DNA of 64,000 bases from contig NZ_CP010311.1 of the NCBI RefSeq assembly GCF_000827125.1, positions 620,001 to 684,000 of the forward strand, given 5' to 3'. The stretch comes from Geoalkalibacter subterraneus (lineage in GTDB: Bacteria > Desulfobacterota > Desulfuromonadia > Desulfuromonadales > Geoalkalibacteraceae). The notes beneath the pieces were generated by a model. That model was given only the letters and a program-made list of their open reading frames with translations, was not told the DNA's origin and did not search any database. Below, piece after piece: positions 1 through 32,404 of this stretch. The first letter of the stretch is position 1. Every line of letters starts with the position of its first letter. The position numbers were made by a program, and so were the translations under genes.

Positions 1-1533
1 GAAAAAGCGATGGTTGCCATCAAGGCTTTCGTGAACCGCTACGGTCGTCCCCCGCCCTTCGATCACTTCGAGAATCCGTTCATCCTTGAGAACTTCCTTT
101 ATGCCCCCCATGGCGAGGTATTTCGGGGCGTAGCAGTAAACGCCACTGTTCATCAGCTTGGTGTCCCAGGTCAACGTCTGCAGCAGTATTCCTGCGAGCA
201 CCGCTGTCGCTGCCGTTCCCCAACGCACAAGGGCGGGAAAGGGACGGAAGCGAAAAATCAGATAGAGGCCGAAAGCGGTATTGAGCAGAGCGAGAGCCTG
301 GATGCTTTCCAGCAGTCCCAGCGCCGGGACCAGAAAAAAACCGGCGGCAAGGCTGCCGAGCACCGCGCCGAGAGTATTGTGCAGAACCACCAGCCCCACG
401 CCCGCGCCGGTCTGCCGCTTGCCGGGATCAAGAATCGCCACCGCTGCGGGCAGCAGCGCGCCGGAAAGGATGGTCGGCGGTCCGACAATGCCGAAGGTGA
501 TCAAAAAGGATAGAAAAGACAGCAGCCACCAGCGTTCTGCAGAAACGTCATGGGCCCATTGAAAAGCCAGCGCCAGCTGATCGTAGAATGGCGCCATGAC
601 GGTCACAGTCAGGCCCATGCATAATGTCAGCAGGCAGAACAACCGTTTTTCATTCATGTCCGGTCTGGCCAGTCGCGCGTACAGTGCACCTCCCAGTGAA
701 ATCCCCACCAGAAACGCCGAGAGCATCATGGAAAAGGCATAGACCGTGTTGCCCAGGAAAAGCAGCAGAACTCGAGTCCAGAGCACCTCGTAGGCCAGAG
801 AGAAAAGACCGATCAGTGCAATGCCGACTAGAATCGGGCGGTGATGAGCTGCACGGGGCTGCCAGGAAGGCAGGCTGGTTGTGGGGAGCACCGGCGTTGG
901 ATCAGGCTGTTTTCGCGCAAGCAGATAGGCGGCCTCGGCGATCGCCAGGTTGAGAGCAACGGCCAGGTAGCCGGTCCATGACAAGCCCAATGCAGGGATC
1001 AGCCAGAAGCCGGCGGCAAGGGTGCCAAGTGTCGCACCCAGGGTGTTCATGGCGTAGAGGCGTCCGATCTGTCCGCCACATTTGCGGCGTGCAAACAGGC
1101 GGCACATGACCGGAAAGGTGCCGCCCATCAGAATAGCGGGCGGCAGCAGCAAAATGGCGCAGAAGAACAGGTGCAGGCTTTGAGTGAGCAGGGGAAGACC
1201 CGGCAGTACCTGAGCCCAGAAAATATAGATTGTCTCCACCAGCCGCAGAGTCGGGGGAAAAAGCAGGGCGGTGACAGCGATACCGACTTCAAGGACGGCA
1301 TAGGTGCGCAGCAGATTGACTCTGGGGTGAACCGTGTAGCGACCCAGCAGAAACGAACCCAATGCCAGCCCCGCCATGAAGGTCGCAGTGACGATGCTGA
1401 CAGCCCACATGGTGTTACCGAAAGTCAGGGAGAGGTACTTGCTCCACAGCACCTCGTACACCAGTGCGCAGAAGCCTGACAGGGCGAAGAGGATATAGAT
1501 CAGCTTTTTGCGGGAAGAAGAGAGTTCCGGCAT
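1..1533 (-). CDS. Membrane-embedded spermidine-synthase-like protein, partial (C-terminus off window)
   Basis: The frame is open from an ATG at 1533 to the left edge, so about 511 residues are visible and the C-terminus is missing. GGAGG lies 6-7 bases before the ATG. The protein opens with GFCALVYEVLWSKYLSLTFG, the usual first helix of the fused MFS-like/spermidine synthase family, and a second copy of this motif (LFSLAYEVLWTRVLLLFLG) lies near residue 230, so the membrane part is an internal duplication of helix bundles. The last visible residues (LEVIEGRGTTVAVHE) look like the start of a polyamine-synthase fold domain. A full-length relative lies at 9626-12064. It is the last visible gene of the leftward series starting at 7437. 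The substrate is unknown; family members are often annotated as spermidine synthases without biochemical support. Confidence 0.85.
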   Translation of the reverse strand, partial: MPELSSSRKKLIYILFALSGFCALVYEVLWSKYLSLTFGNTMWAVSIVTATFMAGLALGSFLLGRYTVHPRVNLLRTYAVLEVGIAVTALLFPPTLRLVETIYIFWAQVLPGLPLLTQSLHLFFCAILLLPPAILMGGTFPVMCRLFARRKCGGQIGRLYAMNTLGATLGTLAAGFWLIPALGLSWTGYLAVALNLAIAEAAYLLARKQPDPTPVLPTTSLPSWQPRAAHHRPILVGIALIGLFSLAYEVLWTRVLLLFLGNTVYAFSMMLSAFLVGISLGGALYARLARPDMNEKRLFCLLTLCMGLTVTVMAPFYDQLALAFQWAHDVSAERWWLLSFLSFLITFGIVGPPTILSGALLPAAVAILDPGKRQTGAGVGLVVLHNTLGAVLGSLAAGFFLVPALGLLESIQALALLNTAFGLYLIFRFRPFPALVRWGTAATAVLAGILLQTLTWDTKLMNSGVYCYAPKYLAMGGIKEVLKDERILEVIEGRGTTVAVHESLDGNHRFF

Positions 1534-1622
1534 CGGATGCCTCCGATGAGAGTTGATGGGCCGTTGTTCGCACCTTGTGCGCTTTAGGAGAATATGTGCG
1601 AATCGCGTGATTCTAGCATTGC

Positions 1623-2960
1623 CTATTCCTGAAAGACAAATGATTTCAAATCATTTTCAGTGAGTGTCGATATTCTGGAAAGCTGCTCTTCAGTCTCGGG
1701 ATAGTAGATGTCGGACCAGGGCAGACGTGCCAAGTCTTGGGCAAGATCCCGAAGAGGAGCGATCTGTTCAAGTTCAAACAGCAGGCCGATGCGCCGCATT
1801 CTGATCAATGGGTCGTTCGGCAGGGCCTTCTCCGCCAGTTCCTGCATCTGCAGGGCTTTTTCGAGACGCCCCGCATCGCGCGCGGTTGTAGCCAGCGGCA
1901 GATATTCGAGGGCATAGACCGAATCAAGGGAGACGGACCGTTCGAGGGCTGCAAGGGCCTGGTTCCCCTGTTTCACCGCTCGAAGAGCCCGGTAGCGGGC
2001 AAAATGAAAGGCGGCCTCGTTCGGATGTTCCTCGCACAGTTTCGTTAATTTTTCGGCGACGCGTTCGGTTTCGAGGAATGTGGCCAGATAGAGGGCCTGG
2101 GCCTGTTCGCGCCAGGGGGCGGGAAGGGGAGCATCAAGTTGCGCAGGGTTGTCCAGCCAGAACCTCAGGCGTTCGACGAGGAACCGAAGGTCGAGGGGCA
2201 CGCGCCCGCTGCGGTTGCCGGCGGTGAGGGTCGTGGCGAGAGTCTCCCACGATTTGTCTCGCACCTGGACCAGCATTTCCCGACCCAGGTCGTGAATGGG
2301 CGTTTTGACTTCGTTGCGGTAGAGCTCGCCAAAAAAACTCAGATCGAAATGGGTGATGACCAGCCCCTCAAGCCCAGGCAGTTGCTCAGGGTGGACGATG
2401 CGAAAAGGCACTCCGCCGGCAGTGCCGGCAAAGCCCTCGGAAGCAGCGTGCAGGGAGTGTCCTTCGCTTTCACTCAGGATCCCGGCCTCGGTCAGCTGTT
2501 GTCGCAGGGTGGCCAGATCAAGCTGATCGGGGTCATGGGCGGAGGGAATGACCCAGATCAGTTCCCGGAAAAATCCCGCCTGCAGTGCAAGCCTGACGCT
2601 CATGGAGGGAAAGAACAGCGGATCGGGACGGCCGGGAGCGGCATGATCCGCTATGTTCTCAGGGGGGCCGCTGCGAATCAGCTCCAGAGCTTCCCGTTCC
2701 AGCTCTTCAGGGATCGGCAGTAGAAAAGGATCCTGGGAAAACAGGACCAGCGTCGGGCGTTGCGCGACATGGGTGCGCCAGATAGGCAGAGCCTCGGCCG
2801 GATGCTCCACCCGGTGAACGGAGGAATCCTGAACGATCTGTGCTTGCCGTTTCTCAGCGTCCGCAGGAACGGCTACGGGAACTGGCGCAGGGCCTTGGGC
2901 CGAATCCTGGCAGGCGCAGAGAGCGAGCAGAAAAATCACAATTGCGATAGAGCGGAACAT
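1623..2960 (-). CDS. TPR-like lipoprotein, paralogue of the 31052-32404 protein
   Basis: The 445-residue product begins with a lipoprotein signal ending in the lipobox LCAC (Cys about residue 17). The middle part carries a conserved block (LPIWRTHVAQRPTLVLFSQ followed by DPFLLPIP) and reads like an alpha/beta domain rich in carboxylates. Residues about 300-420 are helical repeats with TPR character (EAAFHFARYRALRAVKQGNQ; ALEYLPLATTARDAG). The 450-residue protein encoded at 31052-32404 has the same layout and clear similarity (IPSAHDP versus FPSKVDP; HFDLSFFGELYRNE versus HIDLSFFRGLYENE), so these are paralogues at the two ends of the accessory region. It starts 3 bases after the polyferredoxin gene. 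Function is unknown; a periplasmic or outer-membrane scaffold is plausible. Confidence 0.8.
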   Translation of the reverse strand: MFRSIAIVIFLLALCACQDSAQGPAPVPVAVPADAEKRQAQIVQDSSVHRVEHPAEALPIWRTHVAQRPTLVLFSQDPFLLPIPEELEREALELIRSGPPENIADHAAPGRPDPLFFPSMSVRLALQAGFFRELIWVIPSAHDPDQLDLATLRQQLTEAGILSESEGHSLHAASEGFAGTAGGVPFRIVHPEQLPGLEGLVITHFDLSFFGELYRNEVKTPIHDLGREMLVQVRDKSWETLATTLTAGNRSGRVPLDLRFLVERLRFWLDNPAQLDAPLPAPWREQAQALYLATFLETERVAEKLTKLCEEHPNEAAFHFARYRALRAVKQGNQALAALERSVSLDSVYALEYLPLATTARDAGRLEKALQMQELAEKALPNDPLIRMRRIGLLFELEQIAPLRDLAQDLARLPWSDIYYPETEEQLSRISTLTENDLKSFVFQE

Positions 2961-2963: not shown

Positions 2964-4475
2964 CTACCTCACGAAAAGCCAGCGGATTACCGTTGAGCCG
3001 TAGAGAGCGCTGAGCATGCCGACGGTGACCGCCATGGCGGTGACAAAACCCGGTGTCGAGGTGCCTGAGGGCAGGGCGCGCATGCAGCGGCGCACCGCCG
3101 GGAGGCACAGGGCCGCGCCGCCGAGCAGCAGCGTCATGATGACCCATTTGAGGGTGTCGAGTTGCAGCAGCAGCCCCGGAGAGGGCACTGTATGCATGAC
3201 GTTCATGGCCAGGTAGCTCTTCACCCCGCCGGGGTCGCGCAGCGCATAGGGCAGAAACCCCGCCTTGGCGTTGATTTTGACCACCGCCAGAATCAGGTGA
3301 ATGGTGAGCAGTAGCGGAATCAGCGGCAACGCCAGATGCCCCATGCGAGCCCAGAAGCCGATTTCCGCTATGGGCGCTGAGGTGGGGGCAGGGTGCGGAG
3401 GCGAGTTCTCGTCTGTCAGCGTCGTTATCCGCAGGTCGCTCAAGCGCCAGATTCCCCAGGCAGGAAGGAGCAGCAGCAGGGGAAAGATCACGGCGGCCCA
3501 CAGCGCCGCAAGCAGGTAATAACCCGTGCCTGTCCACCCCAGCAGCAGCGCGGCCTGCTCGGGCGCGGCCCACACCCATTGGCGCAGGTCGGGATAGACC
3601 TTGGTGAAATTGACGGTGAGAAGCCCCAGCAGGACGAGAAAGAACAGGGTCTCGGAGGGCGCCAGCGGCGCGCGGCCAAGATCGCCGAGCCAGGGCCTGC
3701 GCCCCATGGCGATGTTGTCGTTGTCGCAGTTGTGGGCGCAGTGCAGGCACAGGGTGCAGGCCGCCGCGTCGTTCATCTGCTCTGGCACCAGGTCGACGGG
3801 GCAGGTTTTGCGTTGCCCGTGCCAGAACAGCACCGCCGGACCCAACGCCAGCTTGCGCCACAAGGGCTTGCCGGAAATGCAGTTTTTTTCGCTGCAGGCT
3901 TCACAGGTCTCAGCGTTGCGAACCCGCAGGCTCCAAGGGGCAAGGCGCGCATAGAGGCCGAAAACGGCGCCCGCGGGGCACAGCAGGCGGCAGAAGGCGT
4001 GGCCGCGAAAAACAAGTCCGGCGAGCGCGGCCAGCAGCAGAAGCAGCGCCAGCAGGCGCGCCGTGAGGTCGGGGTGGCGGTGCAGCTCCAGAAAATAGAC
4101 TGCCAGCTGCAGCGCCAGCAGCGCCAGGGTCACGGGGATAAAGTTCTGCAGCCACCGGGGCAACGGGCGGTTGAATCCGAAGCGGTTGGCCAGCCCGTTG
4201 ATCCACCCCAGCGGACAAACTGTGCACCAGCCGCGACCGAACAACAGAGCGATAAATACGATTCCCATGATCCACCACACCCAGAACAGATGGGTGGTGA
4301 GGCTGGTGTACATCAGAGGGTCAGGCACCTTGACGCCGGGGATGGCGTGATGGTGCCAGCCGGCGGCGATCATAATCAGCACCACAGCCAGGCACAGCAA
4401 ACGTGCGATGCGCCAGGTCCATGGCGACCGCATGACCGGGCCGAGGAGAGGTGTGTTGAAGATGTTTTTCAGCAT
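2964..4475 (-). CDS. Polytopic membrane 4Fe-4S ferredoxin (NapH/NosR/CcoG-like)
   Basis: The 503-residue protein has about eight or nine hydrophobic helices and a Cys-rich core. Visible motifs are WCTVCPLGW near residue 87, FCRLLCPAG near residue 165, CEACSEKNC near 195, KTCPVDL near 225 and CTLCLHCAHNCD near 240. Pairs of CX2-3CP motifs inside a membrane protein followed by ferredoxin-like clusters are characteristic of the NapH, NosR C-terminal and CcoG group, which move electrons across or at the cytoplasmic membrane. Here it sits between exported lipoproteins and near a haem-binding lipoprotein, so it may feed electrons from the quinone pool or cytoplasm to the periplasmic components of this locus (inference). 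About 230 bases of repeat DNA separate it from the upstream HEAT gene. Confidence 0.85.
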   Translation of the reverse strand: MLKNIFNTPLLGPVMRSPWTWRIARLLCLAVVLIMIAAGWHHHAIPGVKVPDPLMYTSLTTHLFWVWWIMGIVFIALLFGRGWCTVCPLGWINGLANRFGFNRPLPRWLQNFIPVTLALLALQLAVYFLELHRHPDLTARLLALLLLLAALAGLVFRGHAFCRLLCPAGAVFGLYARLAPWSLRVRNAETCEACSEKNCISGKPLWRKLALGPAVLFWHGQRKTCPVDLVPEQMNDAAACTLCLHCAHNCDNDNIAMGRRPWLGDLGRAPLAPSETLFFLVLLGLLTVNFTKVYPDLRQWVWAAPEQAALLLGWTGTGYYLLAALWAAVIFPLLLLLPAWGIWRLSDLRITTLTDENSPPHPAPTSAPIAEIGFWARMGHLALPLIPLLLTIHLILAVVKINAKAGFLPYALRDPGGVKSYLAMNVMHTVPSPGLLLQLDTLKWVIMTLLLGGAALCLPAVRRCMRALPSGTSTPGFVTAMAVTVGMLSALYGSTVIRWLFVR

Positions 4476-4709: not shown

Positions 4710-5615
4710 TCAGTGATACACATTATCCGGCGGCACCATCTCCCCTTTGGCGTTGCGGTAGAGGGTGCGCTGACCGGTGATCATTTCCAGTGAGCGGGCC
4801 GACCACTCGCGGACCACGGTCACTTCATCTTCCAGGGTTTGCCGCAGAGGCTGTTCAGCTTTTTGGGCGCCGAGGGGGCCCAGGGCCATGGCGGCGTTCA
4901 TGCGGACCTCCCAGTCCCCGTCTGTCAGTCCGGCAATAAGCGCGTCCGTGGCCTGCGGATCGCGCAGCTTGCCGAGGGCCAGCATGGTTTCAGCCCGGTG
5001 GTTCGCATGGGGTTGTTCGAGCAGCGCCTGGAGGGCGCGGCGATCGCCGATGTCGCCCAGGGCGTGGATGATGCCGCGGGCCATCTGCGGTGAGGCATGG
5101 GGCAGCGCCTCGATCAGGGCGGGGACCGCCGGTCGATGAATGCGCACCAGGGCGCGCACCGCCTGGCGGCGCACCTCGAAATTGGCGTCGTCAAGCGCAG
5201 CGATCAGGTTCCCGGTAAATGACGGATCATTGATCTTGCCCAGCGCCCAGGCCGCGACGTAGCGGCGCTCCAGGGCGGTATCGGCCAGGATTTGCGCAAT
5301 TCTGTCGGCCGCCTGTTGCGCGCCGAGGTTGCCGAGCGCGGCAATGGCCGCCTCGCGCCGGGCGGCGTCAGGGTCTTTGATCAACTCCATGAGAAAGGGC
5401 ACGGATGTTTCGCCCTGTTCCATCAACAGGTCATAGGCGCGTTCGCTGAGAACCGGATGCCCCAGCAGCTGCGCTGTTTTACGCAGCGCAGCTGCATCGC
5501 CCTGACGGGCCTGACGTTCCAGGTCGCTGAAGTCGAGGGGGGTGCGGTCGCTTTCGCATCCCGTCACCAACCCCATCAGAATGAAGAAAAATAAAAAAAG
5601 CAGAGCTCGTTTCAT
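4710..5615 (-). CDS. HEAT-repeat lipoprotein
   Basis: The 301-residue product has a lipoprotein signal with lipobox VTGC (Cys about residue 20). From about residue 70 to 285 it consists of roughly seven HEAT/PBS-lyase-type repeats, each with an A-x-x-A-L-G-x-L/I core (AAIAALGNLGAQQAADRI; AAWALGKINDP; AAMALGPLGAQKAEQPL). Such solenoids mediate protein-protein contacts; no catalytic residues are seen. The stop of the upstream gene and this start share a base at 5615, which points to translational coupling. In this context it is probably a periplasmic-side adaptor for the neighbouring redox and beta-sandwich lipoproteins (inference). Confidence 0.85.
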   Translation of the reverse strand: MKRALLFLFFFILMGLVTGCESDRTPLDFSDLERQARQGDAAALRKTAQLLGHPVLSERAYDLLMEQGETSVPFLMELIKDPDAARREAAIAALGNLGAQQAADRIAQILADTALERRYVAAWALGKINDPSFTGNLIAALDDANFEVRRQAVRALVRIHRPAVPALIEALPHASPQMARGIIHALGDIGDRRALQALLEQPHANHRAETMLALGKLRDPQATDALIAGLTDGDWEVRMNAAMALGPLGAQKAEQPLRQTLEDEVTVVREWSARSLEMITGQRTLYRNAKGEMVPPDNVYH

Positions 5616-6370
5616 TACCAGACCCGTGTGACGTAAATGTCGACGTTTTGGCGCTGCTCGCCTTCGCGCAGCACCACCGCGGAGGGTTCAATGGTACCCT
5701 GGTCGTAGCGGCCGTAGAGGTCGCCGATCTTGGGAGGCCCGCCGAATTTATCCCGCGCGGCGAGGTAGTAGGTGCCCCCCTCCGGCAGATGAATCAGATA
5801 GCGGCCGTCGGGGCCGGTTTTTTCCGAGACGAACTTGGGCCGCTCCGACATTTGCACATGGTCGTAGACGTGCACCCGTGTGCCTTCCACCGGTCGTCCC
5901 TCACTATCCAAAATGCGTCCGCTGAGGATCGTCTGCGTTAAATCCTGTTCTGCGGCCAACTGTTTATCGTCGCCGACTTTAAGCGGCGCTTCCACCGCGA
6001 CCTGCGTCACCCCCCCGCGGACTGTGAGAGTCAGGAACTCGCTGCGATGGTCGCCGGTCACCACCGGCCCGGAAGATTCGCCGTTGGCGCGTTTGCGCAC
6101 CACTCCAATATAGTCGCCCTCGGGCAGGCTTAAACTGAAACGTCCGTCGCTGTCGCTGGCGGCGGAAACCGCAAATGCGGGGCCATACAGATCCATCCCC
6201 TCCTGGTAGACGTAGAGATAGGCGTCGGCCAGCGGCGCCGTAACCCGCCCCTCGACGACAGCAAGCCATTCGCCCGCCGTTTCGGAATCGGACGGCGCCT
6301 GATTACACGACACTATAAAACAGAGCAGAAACGCTCCAATAAAAATCCGCAGATATCTTTTCCCTATCAT
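5615..6370 (-). CDS. Two-domain carboxypeptidase-regulatory-like lipoprotein
   Basis: The 251-residue product has a signal with lipobox IVSC (Cys about residue 22). Two beta-sandwich domains follow, each of the type G-x-V/I...G..A..YVY...T...D.DGRF.L.LP.G.Y...ARD: first EGRVTAPLADAYLYVY at about residue 40, then SGRILDSEGRPVEGTRVHVY at about residue 150. They correspond to domains 2 and 3 of the three-domain proteins at 12061, 14439, 16821 and 29066, so this is a shorter family member. It overlaps the HEAT gene by one base. The fold is that of CarboxypepD_reg/transthyretin-like domains, usually structural or adhesive. Confidence 0.8.
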   Translation of the reverse strand: MIGKRYLRIFIGAFLLCFIVSCNQAPSDSETAGEWLAVVEGRVTAPLADAYLYVYQEGMDLYGPAFAVSAASDSDGRFSLSLPEGDYIGVVRKRANGESSGPVVTGDHRSEFLTLTVRGGVTQVAVEAPLKVGDDKQLAAEQDLTQTILSGRILDSEGRPVEGTRVHVYDHVQMSERPKFVSEKTGPDGRYLIHLPEGGTYYLAARDKFGGPPKIGDLYGRYDQGTIEPSAVVLREGEQRQNVDIYVTRVW

Positions 6371-6417: not shown

Positions 6418-7437
6418 TCACTCCAGCAGCACCAAAGTTTCCCGCAGAGTCGAAGCATAATGCTCGCTCAAGGTGTGATCCATGACCGCAAGACCGAAAT
6501 GGGTCGCGTTTCCCTCCCCGGGCAGAAAAGATCGATCAAGAGGATCGACGCTGATCCGATTTCGTCTCAGGGTCAGAACCCAGCGCCCGTTCTCGTGCCG
6601 ACTGTGCGCGCTGACATCGGCGCGGCTGCCGTGAGGAGGTGAAACCAGGTACCCCGGCGCCAGAGTGCCCGGCGCGTAAAATCTGCCGCCGGGCGGTCGA
6701 CCGTCGGCATCGACGAGGGGGCGGTCCTGCTCGCCGAAAGGAGCGTCCGTTGAGTTCTGAAGGCTGGCCATGCGCGAATTTCTGCTGAAGATTTCTCCGG
6801 GTAGGTCGCCGTGCATCCCTTCTTCGTCGATGCGGCGGTCATCGGCGAACCCCAGACGCGCCGTAAGATCGGCCTGCCAGGACCACAGGTCAAGCACTTT
6901 GTCGGGACTTGCAAGCTTCATGCGGTGACCGGCATGAAAGCCGCTGCCTGATACTCCGAAGTCATCGATATGACAGGAGCGCGCACAGGTAAAGTCAGAA
7001 AATTGTGCCGGATCGGCCCAGATCAGGCCGAGACCATCCTGCAAACGTGGTTCGTTGTTCCACTTCTCGCCGTCGAAGATCCAGGGGTTGAGAGCGGTGT
7101 CTGCAGTGGGGTCGCGCCAGACGAGACGCAGATAAAGGTCCGTTTCCGTATAGAAGGCTTTCATTTCCACCCGGATCGGGTCAGGCAGCTGCCCGCCGTG
7201 ATGACAGGAGGGGGTGGACGTATGAACGGTGTCCTCGTTGATATCAGGCAGAGGATTCTCCTTGTGCGGTCTCCCTCCGCGCACCGTGACCGTGCGGGGA
7301 AGCGTTCTCTGCCAGTCCGTCTCGCTCGGTGGTTTTTCGAGCTTCAGGGCATAGAGCCGGTCGGCGGGTATCTCGCGACATGAGGAGATAAGGGTTAAGG
7401 CAGAAAAAAAGGTCAGGATGACACGGTGAAGGTTCAT
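6418..7437 (-). CDS. Ethylbenzene-dehydrogenase-like haem-binding lipoprotein
   Basis: The ATG at 7437 gives 339 residues with a signal ending in lipobox LISSC; a longer frame to 7512 would only add repeat-derived sequence. The body has the EB_dh (cytochrome b-like, gamma-subunit) pattern: YTETDLYLRLVWRDPTADTA, then FDGEKWNNEPRLQDGLGLIW, then DLWSWQADLTARLGFADDRR, and a C-terminal GRWVLTLRRN strand with FGLAVMDH. Two Cys/His sites stand out: STPSCHHGG near residue 65, and FTCARSCHID near residue 135, which has CX3CH spacing and could bind haem c covalently. It heads the leftward series and probably passes electrons between periplasmic partners (inference). Confidence 0.75.
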   Translation of the reverse strand: MNLHRVILTFFSALTLISSCREIPADRLYALKLEKPPSETDWQRTLPRTVTVRGGRPHKENPLPDINEDTVHTSTPSCHHGGQLPDPIRVEMKAFYTETDLYLRLVWRDPTADTALNPWIFDGEKWNNEPRLQDGLGLIWADPAQFSDFTCARSCHIDDFGVSGSGFHAGHRMKLASPDKVLDLWSWQADLTARLGFADDRRIDEEGMHGDLPGEIFSRNSRMASLQNSTDAPFGEQDRPLVDADGRPPGGRFYAPGTLAPGYLVSPPHGSRADVSAHSRHENGRWVLTLRRNRISVDPLDRSFLPGEGNATHFGLAVMDHTLSEHYASTLRETLVLLE

Positions 7438-23186: not shown

Positions 23187-26100
23187 ATGATCCGGCAACC
23201 TGAAGACGCTGAAAAAAAGGAAATCGTGAAAGGCCCAAGAGAGTTTTCCGGGAGACAAAAGATGAGTTTTGCACATACGGACGTTCAATCGAAAGCCTGC
23301 TGCTCCGGCCGGAACCGGAGGAAAGGGTTTCTGGGCGCCTTGACTTTGATACTGTTGTTGAGTCTGACATCCTTTTCGCAGGCCGCGATCCCTGATGTGC
23401 CTGCCAGCGGCGCCTATATCGAGGCCGAAGACTACGTCGGCATGGGGGCGCCCAACCCCTGGGCCTGGGAATTTCAAAGCAGCGTTACCGGTTTTCAGGG
23501 CACGGGCTATCTTTACACCACCAACGGCGGGACCGGCACCACGCCCAACGGCTCACGCGTTGATTTCCCGGTGAACTTTCTCGAAGCCGGCACCTATCAG
23601 ATTTGGCTGCGGGGTCGGGATCAGGATGGCGCCGGCGGCGGCGATTCGACTTTCTGGGGGATGGACGGCACTGTGCTGGGGGCATTGACCCAAGCCGGCG
23701 ACAACCGGTGGGAGTGGACCACCCGCCTGCAGAACGGCACCAACCAGGTGACCATCAACGCGCCCGGGGGCCACACCCTCAATCTGTGGCCGCGCGAGAC
23801 GGGGCAGCACACCGACAGTATCTTCATCATCCGCACCGATAAGCCGCTGCCGGATAACCTTTCCGAAGGCAGCGCCGCCGGAGTGCCCACCGGCCACACC
23901 GCCTTGGATTTCTCGCAGACCGGGCCCGGCGCAGGCTATATCACCATCGCCGACGGCCAGAAGGTCAACGGCGACACGATCGATCTGGTCACCGGCAAAA
24001 TCGACGGCAATGATCTGGTCTACGACACCGATCTCTCCGGGCTCACCTACCGCCCCCTGCTCCCGCCCAGCGATGGGTTCAACGGCTATGCCGTCGGGTC
24101 CAAGTGGACCAAGGTCGACGTGGGCGGTGACACCACCCCCGATCCCGTCATCGACAACAGCGGTGTTCTGCATCTGACCGGCAGCGGGCAGAACATCTGG
24201 AACCGCAGCGATTATTTCACCTACCTTTACCAGAACGGCATCAGGGGCGATTTCAGCATCGACGTCCATGTGAAAAACCTTCAGAATACCAACGGCTATG
24301 CCAAGGCGGGGATCATGGTGCGCCAGAGCCTTGCGGGCAACAGCCAGCACGCCATGGCGCTGATGACCTACAGCAACGGGGCCGGCTTTTACCGCCGCAC
24401 CACTGCCGGCGCCAATTCACAGAATACGCTTGCCGCGGGCCAGACCACACCCAAATGGGTGCGCATCACCCGCGAGGGAAATACCTTCACCGGTTACTAT
24501 TCGGCGGACGGGGTGAGCTGGAACCTGATCGGCAGTGATACCGTGGTCATGAGCGATCCGGTGATTATCGGCCTCGGTGTCACCTCCGCCGACGCCAACC
24601 AGGACAACACCGCCCAGTTCGACAACTTCCTGTTCACTGACACGGTGATGGGCGCCACCAGCGGCTGGACCGACGTCACCACCCCCTTCGGCGCCGTGGC
24701 CGCGGGCTGGGGAACCGACCCCGGCGTGCCTGAAGAAAGAGCCATGGCGCTCAAATCCGGCGGGACGCTGGCCGTCAACACCTTCACCTACAGCTCCTGC
24801 GTGGACACCACCCCGTCGAGCATCACCATCCCGGCGGGTCAGATCGTCTCCGGCGGTTCGGTCAGTCTGCCCAGTCTCTTTGACACAGAGGGCAACGTCG
24901 CTGGGTTCACCTATCAGATCAACGGCGTCGGCGCCAACAACCCCTGGAACAGCAACGCCTTCGGCACCGATACCCCAGAGGACGTGACCTTGACGGTGCG
25001 CGGCAGCGACCCCGACTGCGGCGGTTCGCTTCATTCAGCCAGCGCAACCATCACCGTCGACAACACCTGTCAGGATTCAACACCCTCAACCCTCACCATC
25101 GCCACCGGGCAAAGCACCGGCGGCCGGTCCGTGGATCTGACCACCCTCTTCACTAAAACCGGTGACGTGGGCTCATTCACCTACGAGATCAACGGGGTTC
25201 CTGTTACCAGCCCCTGGAACAGCACCGCCCTGGTGCCGGTCAACAGTGACGGCTCCGTCACCCTGACCGTGAGCGGCATCGACCCCAATGACGATTGCCC
25301 GGAAAAACCCGATATTCTCATTGAAGCCTCCAACACGATTTATGTCGACAATCGCTGCACCGGCGTCGATCCCACGGTACTATTCGACGACAGCCCCAAA
25401 TACGTGGCCTCCGGCAAGCAGGTCGCCTATACGGTGACGGTTTTCAACAACGACGGGCTGATCTGCGATCCGATGGATGTCACCCTGAGCCTGGTGGGCG
25501 ACAGCAATCTCAGCGATTTCGACGCCTCTATTCTCATGGGCGGTACCCAGAGCGTTTTGCCGCGCGACTCCAGAACCTGGGAGATGATCGTCGGCGCGAG
25601 AGAGGACGTGCCGGAATGGCAGGAGAACACCACCACGGTGCGGGCTACCATCGACAGCGATCCTAACGGACATGTCCACACTGCCGTGGATGCGAGCACC
25701 AAAACCGTCGTCTTTCTGGTCTCGCCCATCACCCACAACAGCATCACTACCAAATCGAGCAAATGGGGGGGCAACTGGGGCACCAGCGACGCGGGTAGCA
25801 AGTACGGAAACTTCACCTGCCTGACCTGCCACGAGAAGAACTCCCCCAATGTCAAATGGATGCGCGAAACCATCGCCACCCCCGACGGCAGCAACTGGGA
25901 GAGCACCGGCACGAATTCGGTCACCGTCGTTTTCAACGATGCCCGTGACGGATCCTCCGACTGGGGCAATGACGACCCCTACGGGCTCGACGGAGCCGAT
26001 TTCGACAACAACGGCGGACCCGGTCGCACCTCCTCCAACCGCAGCTGCGAGGTCTGTCATTCGCAGACCCTCTATCATCGCTACGACACCAGCGGGCAGG

Positions 26101-29048
26101 CGGAGCTGGCCCATTTCAACGACCGCGCCTGCATCGACTGCCATCGCCATGACGAGGGTTTTACCGCCGACTGCACCAACTGTCACGGCAACCCGCCCAT
26201 CGACGATAGCCACGGCGGCCCCTGGGGGCTGGCCGATGTGCCGGGTGTGACCGGCTCGGTCACGGCCGGCACCCATTACAAGCACGTGGTGGTGCTCAAC
26301 TACCCCTGCACCTATTGCCACGCCAACTACCGGGGCGTTGATCAGATGCCCCATCAGAACGCAGAGTCCGGTCTTTACGACATCAATCACACCTTCAATG
26401 TTTTTGATTCGCCGGAGTCCGGGGCCACCGCCGGCCACTACACCGGCCAGGACGGCGTGTCCTATGAAGGCGTCATCGTCGCGCCGGGACAGGGCACCCT
26501 GTCCTGCGAAAGCATCTACTGCCACGGCGGCACCGACAACATGGGCGGCTCCAACCCCCAGTGGAACGGCAACATCGCCTGCGATTCCTGCCACGGTACC
26601 AGCGCCACCAACACCCCGCCGGGCTACAGCCACACCACCCACGTCGGCAAGATGGGCATCGCCTGCACGGTGTGTCACGGCATGGAGGTGGGCAACACCA
26701 CTCAGGACAACCCGGGGCTGGTTGGACATGAAGGCGCCAACGTCAAGGGGCATGTCAACGGTAGCGTGCATATCGACCTGAGTCTGCTGCAGGATCCCCC
26801 CTACAACAACAGCAACCCCACTTATCGCGGGCAGACCCTGTGGAACTCTGGCACCCTGGCGCCCAGCGCCGAATACGGGACCTGCAGCAACATCGCCTGC
26901 CATTACAACACCGAGACCCCGGTGTGGAACGACGGGCCCGCCACCTGCGTCACCTGTCACAACAACACCGGTGAAAGCGGCGGGCCGGCGCAGACAAGCT
27001 GGCGGGTCGGGACCATCGGCATCAACAACGCCGCGCCCAACACCGGCAACCACGACGAGCACTGCGATCCCGCCGATGGGATCGACACCGCCATGATCGG
27101 CGCCTTCGTCAACAAGTGCGACAGCTGCCACGGTGCCGGCGCCAACAGCGGCGAACATGTGGGGCATATCGATTTCACGACGGATTTTGCCGGCGGTTTC
27201 ACGTATGATGATGTTGACGGCAGCTGCGCCAACTCCTGTCACTACACCGATGCCACCTACAATTGGGGGTCGGTCGGCGCTCTGCCCTGCCATTACTGCC
27301 ACATGCCGCGCACCGACGGCAGCGGCGGGGCTTACATCGGGCCCACCGTCGTCAATCCGGACGGAACCGGCTTCGACGGGCGCGATGGAGACGGCAACGG
27401 CACCTATTGGACCGGTTACGGCTCGCACCTGAAGAAAACCAGGGGCGAGACTCTCGGCGCCGGCACCAATTGGGACGCCCAGTGCCAGATCTGTCATCCC
27501 TACCACGAGGGGGGTGTGGAAGTGCCGCTGCCGCCCTCCAACTGGACGGCCGCTTCCGGAACCTCCAGCCCGCAGATGGGCAGCAACATGCAGGAAAAAC
27601 TCGGCCTGCAGTTCCCGGTCACCGGGGGTATTCATCTCAAGCCTTATAGCGGGGCGGCCAGCGAGGCGGAAGTGTGCTGGAATTGCCACGGAACGGACGA
27701 CACCATCAATGAATGGGGATTCAATACCGACACGGCGCCCGGTTTCCCCAACAGCCAGAACATCTGGAGCGGGCCGTCCCACAATTACGGCCATCTCTAC
27801 AGCGATGCGGGCTGGACCACCCAGACCCCCTACTGGGTCGACACCAACGGCAAGGGCATGTACCGTAAGGACTATTACCAGCACTCCACCCAGACCACGC
27901 CGAGTTACGTTCTGAGCCAGCGCATCAGCTCGGTGCATTCCGTCAATTTCGAGCTGGGTGAAAACGAGGCTTCGAGCGTGAAGCTCAACATCAATGCCGA
28001 TGGCACGGTGAAGCGCGACAACACCCAGACCCTCGAAGCGCGTGACAAAATCCGCTGCACCTATTGCCATGACGTGCATGACATGAACCGGGCGCTGGTC
28101 AATGACCTGACTCAGGAAAACTCTTCCGGCCCCCCCTACCTGCGCGGCACCTGGATGGGCAATCCCTATGGGCCGGATATGCCGCCGATTTCCGGGTATA
28201 CCTATCCCACCGACGGAGGCTACCACAACCGCGGCAACCGCTTCGCCTCCTTCAGCAGCGATAACAACAATCGCGGCAACATGGTCTTCAGCGCGGCGGT
28301 GCCGCGCCTCTTCGTCGACACCCAGCAGAACAAGGGCGGCTATTTCATCGACCAGAACAGCGGCTGGCCGACTGACGGACGTACCCTGGAGGACACGGCG
28401 GGGATCTGCGTCATGTGCCACGGCGGCAACGTCGACAACCTAGATTATTATACAAATGCCAGCATGTGGCGCACCGGTACGGTCAACGGCCACAGCAACG
28501 CCGTCCTCGGCGGGACGGGCGCCAACAAACGCGACATCTTCGATGCGCGCCGCGGCGGAACCGGGCGCATGTGGATGGCGGCCCAGGAAGGCGTGAATAT
28601 AAGACAATACGGGAAAAACCCGCCGGGAGGCGGCTATCAGCCGCGATCGATCGGCCCCTTCCGCGGCGTTTTCTACACTAGTGGCAATAAGCCGGCCAAG
28701 GATCGCGCCGCGGGTGCTCCGCCGCGAAACACCGGCTGGTACGGCGGCACCGTCGGCAGCACGACGCGCGGCGGCCAATACAACGCCTGGTACAGCGCAT
28801 CGGGCATCGGGACGCACGGCGGTCCCAGCGGCAGGGCGCACGATTTTACCTGCTCCAAGTGCCACACGCCCCATGCTTCCGGCCTGCCGGCGCTGCTGAT
28901 CACCAACTGCCTCGATGCCAATGTGTCCAACTGGAGCAGCGGCAATGCGGGACCCAATCAAACCGGCCAGGCACCCAACACCGCCAACACCTGTCACCGC
29001 AAGAGCAGCACCACCACGGGCTGGAACAAGCTGGCGCCGGGGCAGTAA
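23187..29048 (+). CDS. Chimeric giant cytochrome: carbohydrate-binding-like and DUF1349-like domains plus about 18 haem motifs
   Basis: AGGAGG lies 6 bases before the ATG at 23187 and overlaps the previous stop; ATG 23262 is an alternative. The 1953 residues start with a 25-residue charged leader and a signal helix ending at SFSQAAIP. Residues about 60-215 resemble a CBM6-like sandwich (AEDYVGMGAP; LRGRDQDGAG), about 285-480 a DUF1349-like lectin fold (YAKAGIMVRQSLAGNSQHAM), then two tandem units (SSITIPAGQIVSGGSVSLPS and STLTIATGQSTGGRSVDLTT) and an Ig-like domain. From about residue 870 there are 15 CXXCH, two CX4CH (CESIYCH, CSNIACH) and one CX3CH (CANSCH). A final TCHRKSS has its nearest Cys 28 residues upstream. 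It is likely surface-exposed. Confidence 0.9.
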   Translation: MIRQPEDAEKKEIVKGPREFSGRQKMSFAHTDVQSKACCSGRNRRKGFLGALTLILLLSLTSFSQAAIPDVPASGAYIEAEDYVGMGAPNPWAWEFQSSVTGFQGTGYLYTTNGGTGTTPNGSRVDFPVNFLEAGTYQIWLRGRDQDGAGGGDSTFWGMDGTVLGALTQAGDNRWEWTTRLQNGTNQVTINAPGGHTLNLWPRETGQHTDSIFIIRTDKPLPDNLSEGSAAGVPTGHTALDFSQTGPGAGYITIADGQKVNGDTIDLVTGKIDGNDLVYDTDLSGLTYRPLLPPSDGFNGYAVGSKWTKVDVGGDTTPDPVIDNSGVLHLTGSGQNIWNRSDYFTYLYQNGIRGDFSIDVHVKNLQNTNGYAKAGIMVRQSLAGNSQHAMALMTYSNGAGFYRRTTAGANSQNTLAAGQTTPKWVRITREGNTFTGYYSADGVSWNLIGSDTVVMSDPVIIGLGVTSADANQDNTAQFDNFLFTDTVMGATSGWTDVTTPFGAVAAGWGTDPGVPEERAMALKSGGTLAVNTFTYSSCVDTTPSSITIPAGQIVSGGSVSLPSLFDTEGNVAGFTYQINGVGANNPWNSNAFGTDTPEDVTLTVRGSDPDCGGSLHSASATITVDNTCQDSTPSTLTIATGQSTGGRSVDLTTLFTKTGDVGSFTYEINGVPVTSPWNSTALVPVNSDGSVTLTVSGIDPNDDCPEKPDILIEASNTIYVDNRCTGVDPTVLFDDSPKYVASGKQVAYTVTVFNNDGLICDPMDVTLSLVGDSNLSDFDASILMGGTQSVLPRDSRTWEMIVGAREDVPEWQENTTTVRATIDSDPNGHVHTAVDASTKTVVFLVSPITHNSITTKSSKWGGNWGTSDAGSKYGNFTCLTCHEKNSPNVKWMRETIATPDGSNWESTGTNSVTVVFNDARDGSSDWGNDDPYGLDGADFDNNGGPGRTSSNRSCEVCHSQTLYHRYDTSGQAELAHFNDRACIDCHRHDEGFTADCTNCHGNPPIDDSHGGPWGLADVPGVTGSVTAGTHYKHVVVLNYPCTYCHANYRGVDQMPHQNAESGLYDINHTFNVFDSPESGATAGHYTGQDGVSYEGVIVAPGQGTLSCESIYCHGGTDNMGGSNPQWNGNIACDSCHGTSATNTPPGYSHTTHVGKMGIACTVCHGMEVGNTTQDNPGLVGHEGANVKGHVNGSVHIDLSLLQDPPYNNSNPTYRGQTLWNSGTLAPSAEYGTCSNIACHYNTETPVWNDGPATCVTCHNNTGESGGPAQTSWRVGTIGINNAAPNTGNHDEHCDPADGIDTAMIGAFVNKCDSCHGAGANSGEHVGHIDFTTDFAGGFTYDDVDGSCANSCHYTDATYNWGSVGALPCHYCHMPRTDGSGGAYIGPTVVNPDGTGFDGRDGDGNGTYWTGYGSHLKKTRGETLGAGTNWDAQCQICHPYHEGGVEVPLPPSNWTAASGTSSPQMGSNMQEKLGLQFPVTGGIHLKPYSGAASEAEVCWNCHGTDDTINEWGFNTDTAPGFPNSQNIWSGPSHNYGHLYSDAGWTTQTPYWVDTNGKGMYRKDYYQHSTQTTPSYVLSQRISSVHSVNFELGENEASSVKLNINADGTVKRDNTQTLEARDKIRCTYCHDVHDMNRALVNDLTQENSSGPPYLRGTWMGNPYGPDMPPISGYTYPTDGGYHNRGNRFASFSSDNNNRGNMVFSAAVPRLFVDTQQNKGGYFIDQNSGWPTDGRTLEDTAGICVMCHGGNVDNLDYYTNASMWRTGTVNGHSNAVLGGTGANKRDIFDARRGGTGRMWMAAQEGVNIRQYGKNPPGGGYQPRSIGPFRGVFYTSGNKPAKDRAAGAPPRNTGWYGGTVGSTTRGGQYNAWYSASGIGTHGGPSGRAHDFTCSKCHTPHASGLPALLITNCLDANVSNWSSGNAGPNQTGQAPNTANTCHRKSSTTTGWNKLAPGQ

Positions 29049-29065: not shown

Positions 29066-30193
29066 ATGAAAGATACCTTGGCCGCGCAGGGTCGAAAAGG
29101 ATGTCGAAGTGTGACTTTGGATTGCATCGGCGATAAACCCGGCAGGGTTCAGCGACTGCTGCTGGTGATGATGTTCTTTTTCGGCGGTCTTTTGTTCAGC
29201 GGCCCCGGGCACTGTGAACGACCGACGGCAATCACCGGCAAGCTGACCACGGGCGCGGGAAAAACGCCCGTGGTCGGCGCCGTGGTCAAAGCCTGGCCTG
29301 TAGGAGAGGCTTTGACCGGCGAGGCGCCCCATGTTGCCGCCGAAACGGCGCAAGACGGGCATTTTCGGCTGTCTCTTCCCCCCGGCGACTATTTTGTTCT
29401 CGCCGAGGGCGCGGGCCTCTACGCGTTTTACGGACGCAACCCGCTGAACGTGCCCGATGGGGGCGTGGCCGGCCTGAATCTGAGCATGATTTCGCGCGAA
29501 GTCCCGCCGGCTCACATCGATGCCCGCGTCGAAACCGGGTTTCTGGGTCGTCTGACTCATGACGGCAAGCCCCTCGAAGGCGCAATCGTCACGGTCTATG
29601 CCGATGCCCGCGGCGCATTTCGCGGGATGGGCCTGGGGTGGGCGGCGCCGACGGATGCGGCGGGCTTTTTCGAAGCGCCGCTACCGCCGGGTTCCTACTA
29701 CCTGGTGGCGCGCAAGCGCAATGGCGAGCATCTGAGGGGGCCGCTGCAGGCGGGGGATTTCTTCGGATATTTCCCTGATAATCCGGTCCGGATACGGGAA
29801 GGGAAGGTGGTCGACGTGTCTTTTGCTCTTGTGGAGATCCCCGAAAAAATCAGGCTGCAGGGTGAAGAGATGTTCGGTGACACCAGCATCCGCGGGCAGG
29901 TGCTCGACGGCACGGGACAGACGGTGGCAGGTGTCAAGGTGATGCTCTACGGTGACCCGATGATGATGCAGCGCCCGCTGTACGTGTCGCATCCGACCAA
30001 TAAAAAAGGCGAGTTTGTTCTCTCTTTCCCCCGCGGGGGGCGCTACTGGCTGGTGGCGCGGGACGATCTGGGCGGGCACCCGCGGCCCGGTCAGTTTTAT
30101 GGCCGGTATTCGGACTCTCTGGATGGTTCGATCTACATCCGCACCGGACAGAAGTTCGAAGGCGTTCGCATCAGAGGAGAGATTCTCAACTAG
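29066..30193 (+). CDS. Three-domain carboxypeptidase-regulatory-like exported protein (fifth family member)
   Basis: The ATG at 29066 gives 375 residues, with a 30-residue basic leader before the hydrophobic segment LLLVMMFFFGGLLFSGPGHC. Three beta-sandwich domains follow (AITGKLTTGAGKTPVVGAVV; GFLGRLTHDGKPLEGAIVTV; SIRGQVLDGTGQTVAGVKVM), each with the LPPGDYFVLAEG or LPPGSYYLVARKRN type loop. It is the last gene of the cytochrome series, 17 bases after the chimeric cytochrome, which ties this protein family physically to the cytochromes. No beta-helix partner follows, unlike the three modules upstream. Confidence 0.85.
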   Translation: MKDTLAAQGRKGCRSVTLDCIGDKPGRVQRLLLVMMFFFGGLLFSGPGHCERPTAITGKLTTGAGKTPVVGAVVKAWPVGEALTGEAPHVAAETAQDGHFRLSLPPGDYFVLAEGAGLYAFYGRNPLNVPDGGVAGLNLSMISREVPPAHIDARVETGFLGRLTHDGKPLEGAIVTVYADARGAFRGMGLGWAAPTDAAGFFEAPLPPGSYYLVARKRNGEHLRGPLQAGDFFGYFPDNPVRIREGKVVDVSFALVEIPEKIRLQGEEMFGDTSIRGQVLDGTGQTVAGVKVMLYGDPMMMQRPLYVSHPTNKKGEFVLSFPRGGRYWLVARDDLGGHPRPGQFYGRYSDSLDGSIYIRTGQKFEGVRIRGEILN

Positions 30194-30273: not shown

Positions 30274-31071
30274 TTACAAGGCGGGATCGGGTTGCTCCCG
30301 ATGTCGCGGTGGGTTCTGTTGCGCTCCCGGCTTCCTGCGTTCCATCGCTTTTGATTGTGACTGCAACTCTGCCGATTCGCGCTCGATGCGGATGTCGTCC
30401 ACCAGCACCGGTTGCCGGTCCGGTGTTCCTTCCCGGAACAGGGTCAGGTGAATCATCCTGGTACGGGGCGAGGTGGTAAAGACAAAGGACTGGTGCTCCC
30501 AGTCGCTTTTTCCCGTCAGCGTCACCCCTTGGTGAAGTCCGGTGCGATGACGTTTATCGAGAGTGCGGGTATATTGCTCCCCGACCCAGAGAAACTGATC
30601 ATATTCGACAACTCCGACCCCGGCCCGCCCGCCTTCGGGGAGATCCGTTCTGATCCTGAAAGAAACACGGTAGCTCGTCGCGGGTTCCACCGCCAGCGGC
30701 GAGAAGAATCCCACCGAGTCAATCCCCCGGATACTGCGAAACGAGTAGGCCCGATCTCCCGTCTCCTGCCGCCGTACCACCCCCGACGTCTTGACCAGAT
30801 GTTCCTGGTAGGTCCGCCAGAAGGGCAGAGCGATCTCATCTCCCTCTTCGGGCCTGTAATCTCCCAGTCGCGCAAACAAGGAGAGCTGCGGCGCTGCATC
30901 GAAGGTTTCCAGCACCGGCGGTGCAGGGGGAACGGGTTGTGACTCCTCCACCGGTGCCGGGCTCTGTGCCTGCTCTGGGAGGTCCCGGGGTTCATCGCTG
31001 CCGGTGCATCCCCACAGCGGGGCGAAGATAAGCCCGAGTGCGCATGCGGTTCTAATTGTCGGCTTCATCAT
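30274..31071 (-). CDS. Lipoprotein with C-terminal jelly-roll-like domain
   Basis: In-frame ATGs at 31080, 31071 and 31068 are all possible; all lie within the end of the upstream gene, so translation is probably coupled. The signal ends in lipobox LWGC, followed by a Pro/Glu-rich linker of about 35 residues. The remaining 190 residues contain LPFWRTYQEHLV, which echoes LPIWRTHVAQRP and LPYWRTLREKKP of the two TPR-like lipoproteins, and a carbohydrate-binding-like sandwich (TSYRVSFRIRTDLPEGGRAG; WEHQSFVFTTSP; VLVDDIRIERE). Function is unknown. It converges on the rightward cytochrome series across an 80-base gap with short G/C hairpins. Confidence 0.7.
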   Translation of the reverse strand: MMKPTIRTACALGLIFAPLWGCTGSDEPRDLPEQAQSPAPVEESQPVPPAPPVLETFDAAPQLSLFARLGDYRPEEGDEIALPFWRTYQEHLVKTSGVVRRQETGDRAYSFRSIRGIDSVGFFSPLAVEPATSYRVSFRIRTDLPEGGRAGVGVVEYDQFLWVGEQYTRTLDKRHRTGLHQGVTLTGKSDWEHQSFVFTTSPRTRMIHLTLFREGTPDRQPVLVDDIRIERESAELQSQSKAMERRKPGAQQNPPRHREQPDPAL

Positions 31072-32404
31072 CGGGCTCATTCGCAGCGGCGTCGAAATTC
31101 AGTGCGGCGTGCCGCATCTCTACAAGGAAATCAGGGATGTCGGGATGATACGTAGGCGACCATTGTTTCTCCAAAAGCGGATTCAGCAGCGCAAGCGCCT
31201 CGCCGGGGCGCCCAGCCGCCAGAAGCAGATCGGCGCGCTGTATATCGAGGAAGGGGTTGGCTGGGAAAACCTGCGCCCCTTTTTCGAGAAGTCTCAGGGC
31301 CATCTCCAGGTTGCCGTCGTTTAAGGCCATCTCCGCCAGGCTCAGGTAGGCGGCGCCGTAGCCTGGGTCCCGGGCGACCGCCTGGCCGAGGGCAGTGAGG
31401 GCCTTGTCGGTTTCGCGGGCCAGCAGGTGGCTCTGGAAGAGGTCGTAGATGACGGCTGGGTCCTCGGGGGCCAGATGTGCAGCCTCTCGGTAGAGTTCAA
31501 GGGACTTTGACTCGGTGTACATATCGGCGGCGTACAGCGCCTCGGCGCGCAGGCGCCAGGGCTCGGGCATGTCGCCGGTGAGCAGCGAGGAGTCGCGCAG
31601 AACCTGCGCCAGGTTGGAGAGGACAAAACGAGTATCCAGGGAGATGGCGCCGTGCAGGGTGGAGTAGGAGAGGGTCAGCGCCAGGGGCTGCCACCCGCTA
31701 TCGAGGACCCGCGTGGCGTTCTGATGGATCAGGTCGTAAAGCGGGGTTTTGATCTCGTTTTCGTACAGACCGCGGAAAAAGCTCAGGTCAATATGCAGAA
31801 CCATCGGGCCTTCAAAATACGGAAACTGATCGGGGTGAACAGCCTCAAAGGGGGTGCCTCGCAGGCGGCCGACGTAACGGCCGTTTTCCAGAAAAAATCG
31901 CTCTGCTTCCTGTTCGGTCATGAAATCTGCATCAACCATCTGTTTGCGGAACGTGCCGACATTTAGTTCAGACGGGTCAACTTTTGAGGGAAAAATCCAG
32001 TAGACCCTGGAGAACAGCTCGGCTTCCAGCGCGGCACTTAACGCCTGGGTCGGCATAATGACCGGATCGGGTCGGGGATAGCTGCCATGAAGGTCGATGT
32101 CATCATTGCTGCCGGTCAGGACCAGTTCTTTTGCACGGCTCCGCAACTGGCCAGGAATCGGCTGAAGAAAGGGGTCAAAACTCATGAGCACCAGCACCGG
32201 TTTTTTCTCGCGGAGGGTGCGCCAGTACGGCAGGGCGTGGGTGGAAAGCTCGACCAACTGAGGATCCAGCGGTTGATACTGAGAAGCTTGTTCCGAAGAA
32301 GGTGCAGGGTCTTCAGCGACATGCTCAGGCTGTTTTCGATCGCACGAATAGACCATGAGAATTAAAATTCCCAAGAAAAAGACTCGAAAAAAAAGGCGAC
32401 CCAT
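31052..32404 (-). CDS. TPR-like lipoprotein, paralogue of the 1623-2960 protein
   Basis: The 450 residues start with a signal and lipobox VYSC (Cys about residue 21). The conserved block LPYWRTLREKKPVLVLMSFD, DPFLQPIPGQL, and HIDLSFFRGLYENEIKTPLY matches the left-end paralogue across the whole length. Residues about 300-430 are TPR-type helices (AVIYDLFQSHLLARETDKAL; AAYLSLAEMALNDGNLEMAL; NPFLDIQRADLLLAAGRPGE). GGGAG lies 6 bases before the ATG. It leads a two-gene operon with the jelly-roll lipoprotein. The presence of one paralogue at each edge suggests that the intervening DNA is a functional unit built by duplication. Confidence 0.85.
   Translation of the reverse strand: MGRLFFRVFFLGILILMVYSCDRKQPEHVAEDPAPSSEQASQYQPLDPQLVELSTHALPYWRTLREKKPVLVLMSFDPFLQPIPGQLRSRAKELVLTGSNDDIDLHGSYPRPDPVIMPTQALSAALEAELFSRVYWIFPSKVDPSELNVGTFRKQMVDADFMTEQEAERFFLENGRYVGRLRGTPFEAVHPDQFPYFEGPMVLHIDLSFFRGLYENEIKTPLYDLIHQNATRVLDSGWQPLALTLSYSTLHGAISLDTRFVLSNLAQVLRDSSLLTGDMPEPWRLRAEALYAADMYTESKSLELYREAAHLAPEDPAVIYDLFQSHLLARETDKALTALGQAVARDPGYGAAYLSLAEMALNDGNLEMALRLLEKGAQVFPANPFLDIQRADLLLAAGRPGEALALLNPLLEKQWSPTYHPDIPDFLVEMRHAALNFDAAANEPDDEADN

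Follow-up and report, generated by a model that had tools for sequence, protein, structure and literature searches.

Results

We analysed a 64,000-nucleotide stretch of the chromosome of Geoalkalibacter subterraneus Red1 (NZ_CP010311.1, positions 620,001 to 684,000 of the forward strand), here called the window, together with a locus of about 50,000 bases that enters it from the left and encodes giant multihaem cytochromes, a membrane polyferredoxin and many other envelope proteins. From sequence comparisons, we give this locus an even chance of being a composite envelope electron-transfer system of Desulfuromonadales. The genome comprises a chromosome of 3,475,523 bases and a megaplasmid of 242,122 bases (3,717,645 in total), and the published description of the host has it respiring metals and electrodes (PMC4357744). 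Gene coordinates are window positions, negative numbers lying left of the window (Table 1). An earlier note, made from the window sequence alone, had placed a 32-kb locus at positions 1 to 32404. Its genes were confirmed, but the locus is larger: open reading frames (ORFs) and Pfam matches in the left flank set its start 15.9 kb left of the window, or 19 kb if regulator genes are counted, and its right end lies at about 34,169, which adds the 3,272-amino-acid (aa) cytochrome D on the left and a ResB-family gene on the right. The 20 kb read to the left hold genes for a histidine kinase and a sigma-54-type response regulator, followed by A, B, C, D and then E, which is cut by the window start. 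The ResB gene was counted in the locus because of synteny, its homologue adjoining V in three relatives (G001, G003 and G051). Several ORF ends overlap within L to R, and the largest intergenic gap between positions 1 and 34169 is 526 bases.

Pfam searches bore out the gene set that the earlier note had listed, namely, Fer4_5, HEAT_2, EB_dh, FG-GAP with UnbV_ASPIC, Spermine_synth and TPR matches, CarboxypepD_reg in five window proteins (I, M, O, Q and U) and Beta_helix/NosD in three (N, P and R). The TPR-like paralogues reported at both edges are also real, in that F is homologous to W (33% identity over query residues 5 to 427), though F itself has no Pfam match. Export signals had been called nearly universal; a crude scan, using hydrophobicity and one lipobox pattern in place of a trained predictor, left M and V as the only products from A to W with neither an N-terminal hydrophobic segment nor a lipobox match nor many membrane helices. 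The lipobox-like cysteines of M, V, F and W were judged by eye. As the earlier note had said, no porin gene is visible: there was no Pfam porin match among the scanned products of the locus, a divergent barrel lacking a Pfam model being conceivable. Porins were also sought among conserved neighbours in two relatives (G034 and G072), where ten sequences were judged by eye, with no family search. None was barrel-like; they resemble AMP-binding, methyltransferase, metallo-hydrolase and polytopic membrane proteins.

Table 1. Genes of the locus, in order along the chromosome
Gene	Position	Strand	Product and features
A	left of window		1,006 aa; FG-GAP, PEGA, fn3 and weak NHL/propeller matches
B	left of window		Small cytochrome, 266 aa, 4 CxxCH
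C	left of window		293 aa; weak CarboxypepD_reg match
D	L004:9114-18932, left of window		Giant cytochrome, 3,272 aa, 51 CxxCH (56 Cx2-5CH), fibronectin-III domains
E	-977..1533	-	Membrane spermidine-synthase-like protein, 836 aa; Spermine_synth match
F	1623..2960	-	W homologue, lipoprotein-like by eye; no Pfam match
G	2964..4475	-	NapH-like membrane polyferredoxin, 503 aa; Fer4_5
H	4710..5615	-	HEAT-repeat lipoprotein; HEAT_2 3.1e-38, lipobox match
I	5615..6370	-	Carboxypeptidase-regulatory-like lipoprotein; PF13620, lipobox match
J	6418..7512	-	EB_dh-type lipoprotein with CxxxCH; PF09459 8.5e-21
K	7914..9386	+	FG-GAP/ASPIC exported protein; PF13517, PF07593 (UnbV_ASPIC)
L	9590..12064	+	Membrane protein with central aminopropyltransferase-like domain, 824 aa; Spermine_synth
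M	12061..13128	+	Carboxypeptidase-regulatory-like, lipoprotein by eye; PF13620; fixed place after L
N	13125..14309	+	Right-handed beta-helix (NosD-like) exported protein
O	14397..15467	+	Carboxypeptidase-regulatory-like exported protein
P	15439..16824	+	Right-handed beta-helix exported protein
Q	16821..17891	+	Carboxypeptidase-regulatory-like exported protein
R	17899..18825	+	Beta-helix lipoprotein; lipobox match
S	19191..23177	+	Multihaem cytochrome, 1,328 aa, 25 CxxCH (32 Cx2-5CH)
T	23184..29048	+	Multihaem cytochrome, 1,954 aa, 15 CxxCH (18 Cx2-5CH), DUF1349/ConA-like region
U	29066..30193	+	Carboxypeptidase-regulatory-like exported protein; adjoins T/V/W homologues in G051 and G056
V	30274..31080	-	Lipoprotein by eye; weak CBM-like match
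W	31052..32404	-	TPR protein, lipoprotein by eye; adjoins giant cytochromes in relatives
X (ResB)	32931..34169	+	ResB-family protein, PF05140 8.7e-37; cytochrome c maturation by family

The redox character that the earlier note had read from the gene set is matched by conserved cofactor residues in G and J. NapH-type quinol dehydrogenases carry two membrane cysteine pairs and two 4Fe-4S motifs. In G, 12 cysteines are invariant in 14 aligned rows (two being the window protein itself and one the distant locus L108), and by this alignment G has the NapH-type cysteine pattern, the assignment of cysteines to clusters being one that we infer. G scores 28.3 bits against the NapH family model (cut-off, 213), and no relative of solved structure was found by sequence. 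In J, residues C45, C176, C180 and H181, which make up the lipobox cysteine and a CxxxCH motif, are invariant in alignments of 14 and of 6 rows. J passed the EB_dh model (75.5 bits; cut-off, 33.3) and missed the narrower DMSO_red_II_gam model (19 bits; cut-off, 170). Foldseek matched a structural model of J to NxrC (7b04) and to ethylbenzene dehydrogenase (2ivf chain C); these matches to haem-carrying subunits, from a model of low confidence (mean pLDDT, 51.8), may be taken as support. N matched the NosD family model at 3.1e-15 with 55.6 bits (cut-off, 300).

The counts of about 32 and 18 haem motifs given earlier for S and T hold for the Cx2-5CH pattern; the strict CxxCH pattern gives 25 and 15. 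The N-terminal parts of D and S are 62% identical over 785 columns, and their DNA is 72% identical over 1,515 bases, so that the two look like products of a duplication of this part. Homologues of T in G005, G056 and G024 are 83, 60 and 56% identical to it. In the crude scan, D, S and T each have an N-terminal hydrophobic segment and no lipobox match, and none has an S-layer domain among its Pfam matches. The D family reaches 4,059 aa with 62 CxxCH (72 Cx2-5CH) motifs in G026 (contig C123), and a homologue of 2,794 aa with 58 CxxCH (77 Cx2-5CH) motifs stands beside A, B and W in G018; size alone is therefore no record, since giants of 69 and 86 haem motifs have been published. S and T share a frame with one stop between them. 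Read-through was rejected, as T has its own signal-peptide-like start and its homologue in G005 is free-standing and of equal length. Split cytochromes in G003 were likewise rejected as biology, because the two upstream pieces contain X letters and assembly gaps are likelier.

To place these genes in relatives, the neighbourhoods of L, G and cytochrome homologues were compared (G and L numbers denote relative genomes and loci, respectively; we took G018 as Desulfuromonas soudanensis WTL, G003 as G. ferrihydriticus and G040, locus L086, as Geothermobacter hydrogeniphilus HR-1). This comparison indicates that the locus is an assembly of modules that are separate in many relatives yet co-inherited. 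The first module is the cassette L-M-N-O-P-Q-R, found in exactly this order in 31 of the 36 loci in which an L orthologue has 7.5 kb or more of downstream sequence; the full set comprised 44 loci, several of them the same genome fetched twice. Such conservation is more than chance would give. The exceptions lack M (G003 and G009) or R (G010 and L117) or have M and N swapped through overlapping ORFs (L092); M was detected in G003 in a separate comparison although absent from the cassette count. In many loci the cassette is preceded by a beta-helix/PQQ protein, often together with K, and followed by OpuAC, DUF362 and polyferredoxin genes. The second module, G-H-I-J, lies near L or K in G000, G001, G003, G004, G009, G010, G029, G040 and others, and in the distant metagenome-assembled genome at L108 it stands beside K-, L-, O-, Q- and R-like genes (identities of 41 to 47% for L and 36 to 41% for G in differing alignments). 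It is apart from L in G018, G021, G034 and G051, and the modules of G018 are separate, at 0.74 to 0.80, 1.70 and 3.27 Mb.

The giant cytochromes form a third group. In G009, G018, G024, G026, G027, G034 and G051, a cytochrome of D or S type comes after A and B, and A-B-D occur with T, W, V, U and ResB in varying sets across relatives. In G051, A-B-D-T-W-W-U-V-ResB are contiguous; of the two genes that precede them, one matches response regulators. Because the matching genes adjoin there, A-B-C-D and S-T-U-V-W-ResB can be regarded as two halves of one giant-cytochrome cluster, and an insertion of E to R into an A-B-D/T-W cluster would yield the G. subterraneus order. E lies near F or W in G000, G001, G003, G004, G010, G062 and G064, and G009 holds most of the locus, without E, in one island. 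As a separate observation, G or L is in pieces or in different frames on four contigs (G025:C84, G110:C36, and G113:C77 and C151), which may be decay or assembly error.

Presence of the families was read by hand from search tables over 78 genomes. L was called present at 60% identity or more (including partial G055 and G042, split between contigs), G at E<1e-150 (excluding G025, in two frames, and partial G055), J at E<1e-80, K at E<1e-200, T at E<1e-20, F at E<1e-40 and gene E at E<1e-180 (including partial G048 and G064 at 44%); the T query is haem rich, and its weaker matches are large related cytochromes rather than strict orthologues. L and G occurred together in 27 genomes, each alone in 1 and neither in 49, an agreement of 76/78, and G055, the sole genome with L only, has a piece of G at a contig end. 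The corresponding counts (both/L only/other only/neither) were 27/1/2/48 for J, 25/3/3/47 for K, 27/1/6/44 for T and 25/3/6/44 for F, with a T-type cytochrome in 27 of the 28 L-positive genomes. K was found in 28 and the F/W family in 31 of the 78 genomes; E was patchy (15/78 with the own genome included, and 14/28 of the L-positive ones). Of the 27 genomes that have L and G, 17 carry them on different contigs or more than 100 kb apart. Raw Fisher values are inflated by kinship; hence, shuffling of presence was confined to each of the five families in which L is variable (33 genomes). Agreement with L was seen in 33 genomes for G, 32 for J, 30 for K, 29 for T, 28 for F and 27 for E, against shuffle means of 18.5 to 19.9. 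The control, flagellin scored above its curated cut-off, agreed in 13 against a shuffle mean of 15.4 and thus had no positive association. Among the 78 relatives, flagellin genes were rarer with L (11/28) than without it (36/50).

These data indicate that the core families are inherited together whether or not they are linked, and are not scattered, the outcome that the earlier note had named as fatal to its idea of a single system. That idea survives as co-inheritance of modules; as an invariant unit it does not, the modules being separate in many genomes.

Beyond the right end of the locus, positions 37380 to 37787 encode a 135-aa protein that is hemerythrin-like by eye from its first residues.

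Discussion

We favour extracellular electron transfer for this island because of its parts, the physiology of the host and the tie of its modules to large cytochromes. In such a system G, with its NapH-type quinol oxidase cysteine pattern, would take electrons from menaquinol, and J, a lipoprotein that belongs to the EB_dh/NxrC type and has a CxxxCH haem motif, would carry them through the periplasm along with small cytochromes such as B. The giant cytochromes D, S and T would form an outer wire or mat, with ResB serving haem attachment. The TTR-like and beta-helix proteins (M to R, U and I), together with F, H, V and W, may build this path through the envelope or keep it in place, and L and E would act as membrane proteins rather than polyamine makers. 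The outer membrane might be crossed by a porin-cytochrome complex encoded elsewhere or by the scaffold itself. The order and direction of electron flow, the role of the scaffold and the crossing are all proposed from the gene content. In a bolder version, the L-R TTR-like and beta-helix proteins would build, with L and E, a structure spanning both periplasm and outer membrane; the giant cytochromes, supplied by G and J, would be exported, anchored and charged by this structure, and the conduit would have no porin. This version seems to us decidedly doubtful.

Several observations weigh against an electron-transfer role for the whole locus. Sigma-54-like promoter patterns are not enriched, with 15 matches in the window against 21.5 expected and 5 against 7.7 in the left-flank stretch (L004), though one match, with one mismatch, lies directly upstream of A. 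Six genomes (G002, G005, G019, G024, G049 and G056) have T-type cytochromes but no L, the F/W family is likewise present without L in six, and E is missing from half of the L-positive ones. No giant cytochrome was found within the 5 to 22 kb covered around the distant loci with L-R or G-J. A polyferredoxin family, c6 (strong matches and partial G046 counted; weak G011, G031, G050, G057 and others excluded), agrees with L in 27/33, so that values near 27, above all that of E, are weak; its operon was rejected as a core member, being present in 39/78 genomes and located elsewhere in the own genome. Agreement is poorer in the class-wide genomes above G077, of which 8 have L and G, 4 L only (G083, G089, G090 and G109) and 5 G only (G079, G084, G087, G088 and G108), these nine discordant genomes being drafts of 180 to 640 contigs and 59 to 97% completeness. 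Co-occurrence may also in part reflect respiratory versus fermentative life.

The main doubt comes from uptake-type genes, which leave room for another role. Away from cytochromes, G-J and L-R adjoin binding-protein and permease genes. The G-J operon of G034 (L161) includes genes for a GAF-GGDEF protein, a sigma-54 regulator, two beta-helix proteins, a PhnD-like binding protein and a YeeE-type sulphur transporter, with like-sized genes in like order in G021 and G051 (L160 and L162), and the L-R operon of L091 includes FmdE, ArsP permease, OpuAC and DUF362 genes. In the own genome, an operon at about 2.526 Mb (L152; 2,515,001 to 2,535,000) encodes homologues of an ArsP permease, a CarboxypepD_reg-like protein, beta-helix/PQQ and beta-helix proteins, OpuAC, DUF362 and a polyferredoxin, and so resembles the operons that host L-R elsewhere, but without L-R. 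Two independent systems of a respiratory lifestyle could thus be neighbours here: a giant-cytochrome cluster and, made up of G-J, K and L-R, a system for the periplasmic uptake or respiration of a soluble compound, perhaps related to sulphur, selenium or arsenic. The T-type cytochromes found without L fit such a division. We nonetheless consider it unlikely, if still worth serious attention, given the presence of T in all but one of the L-positive genomes, its agreement with L in the variable families, and the position of K, U and V about 7 to 18 kb from giant cytochromes in G034, G035 and G072 though L is on another contig. Surface electron transfer, as the earlier note had proposed, is the best reading on synteny, co-inheritance and cofactor residues, with the uptake genes beside L-R and G-J counting against it.

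Two further explanations appear improbable, to a similar degree. In the first, the locus would be a maturation machine akin to the nos genes, in which NosD-like beta-helices and a polyferredoxin supply a metal or sulphur, together with electrons, either to the cytochromes or to a metalloprotein of the periplasm. The matches of N to NosD and, weakly, of G to NapH agree with this, as does ResB beside the cytochrome cluster, and a CcmF paralogue is reported to adjoin a giant archaeal cytochrome (Chadwick et al., PMC9012536). However, both family cut-offs were missed, and the scanned products include neither an ABC transporter of the NosF/NosY type nor a target of the NosZ type. In the second, the same hardware would run inward, with iron or a partner as the source of electrons: G. 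ferrihydriticus, which carries the island, is reported to corrode iron, but the same source assigns uptake to Mto-like complexes (PMC12016550), and sequence sets no direction.

L and E match aminopropyltransferases by Pfam and sequence. A model of L (mean pLDDT, 85.4) has about seven long helices, an aminopropyltransferase-like domain and again about seven long helices, and Foldseek matched it to 1uir at 1.5e-08, so that the fold is present. In SpeE, the segment DSTDP holds the catalytic aspartates. In the genome's own ordinary SpeE, encoded at 746.6 kb, this segment aligns to SAVFG in L and SEPSNP in E. With the catalytic segment altered in both, L at 38 bits against the spermidine synthase equivalog model (cut-off, 260) and a separate SpeE at hand, a polyamine-related locus in which E and L are real spermidine synthases can be dismissed as extremely improbable.

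Among known systems, the porin-cytochrome clusters (Pcc, Ext and Mtr; defined here from PMC8235581 and PMC4914508) likewise combine multihaem cytochromes with envelope proteins in a metal reducer, and two porin-cytochrome conduits are reported in D. soudanensis (PMC4914508). Neither a porin gene in the cluster nor, by the crude scan, an outer-surface lipoprotein multihaem cytochrome was found here, and the earlier note, seeing no porin-like gene, had found no match to porin-cytochrome or Ext clusters; the cytochromes are far larger and have no lipobox match, and about 20 non-cytochrome genes accompany them. The membrane polyferredoxin G and the NosD-like beta-helices recall NapH/NapGH and NosR-NosD but fall below the family cut-offs, with no NapA-, NosZ-, NosF- or NosY-type product among those scanned. 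In a large-cytochrome operon of SEEP-SRB1 and Desulfuromonadales (Skennerton et al. 2017, PMC5539420), the core genes encode cytochromes of 16 and 26 haems, a peptidyl-prolyl isomerase and a propeller with six blades. It shares a beta-propeller protein adjoining large exported cytochromes, whereas among the scanned products of our locus there is no isomerase, the haem numbers are other, and A has only weak NHL/propeller matches. Giant cytochromes of anaerobic methanotrophic archaea, with up to 86 haems and an adjoining maturation paralogue (Chadwick et al. 2022, PMC9012536), are alike in having dozens of haems and a maturation gene nearby but are archaeal, and many have S-layer domains, unlike D, S and T.

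Parts of the island have probably been reported already. The 69-haem cytochrome DSOUD_0664 of D. soudanensis WTL (PMC4914508) is probably the D homologue of G018; the available part of that source names the cytochrome and not the modules. G. ferrihydriticus has a 1,208-aa 24-haem cytochrome that adjoins a 38-haem one (PMC12016550), and these probably belong to this island by size and haem count. For the cassettes L-R and G-J, no description was found in the open-licence PMC literature, subscription journals and preprints lying outside the search.

Studies of how bacteria export electrons have mostly dealt with Geobacter and Shewanella. At E<=1e-30 the G family occurs in 42 of the 277 genomes of the class, all within the window's own order, and outside that order only distant relatives, 36 to 41% identical, were seen; the set therefore looks like a lineage-specific one that the Geobacter and Shewanella models miss. 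The locus puts names to about 20 envelope families whose partnership with cytochromes of some 50 to 77 haem motifs can be tested, and two hosts with complete genomes, G. subterraneus Red1 and D. soudanensis WTL, are in culture.

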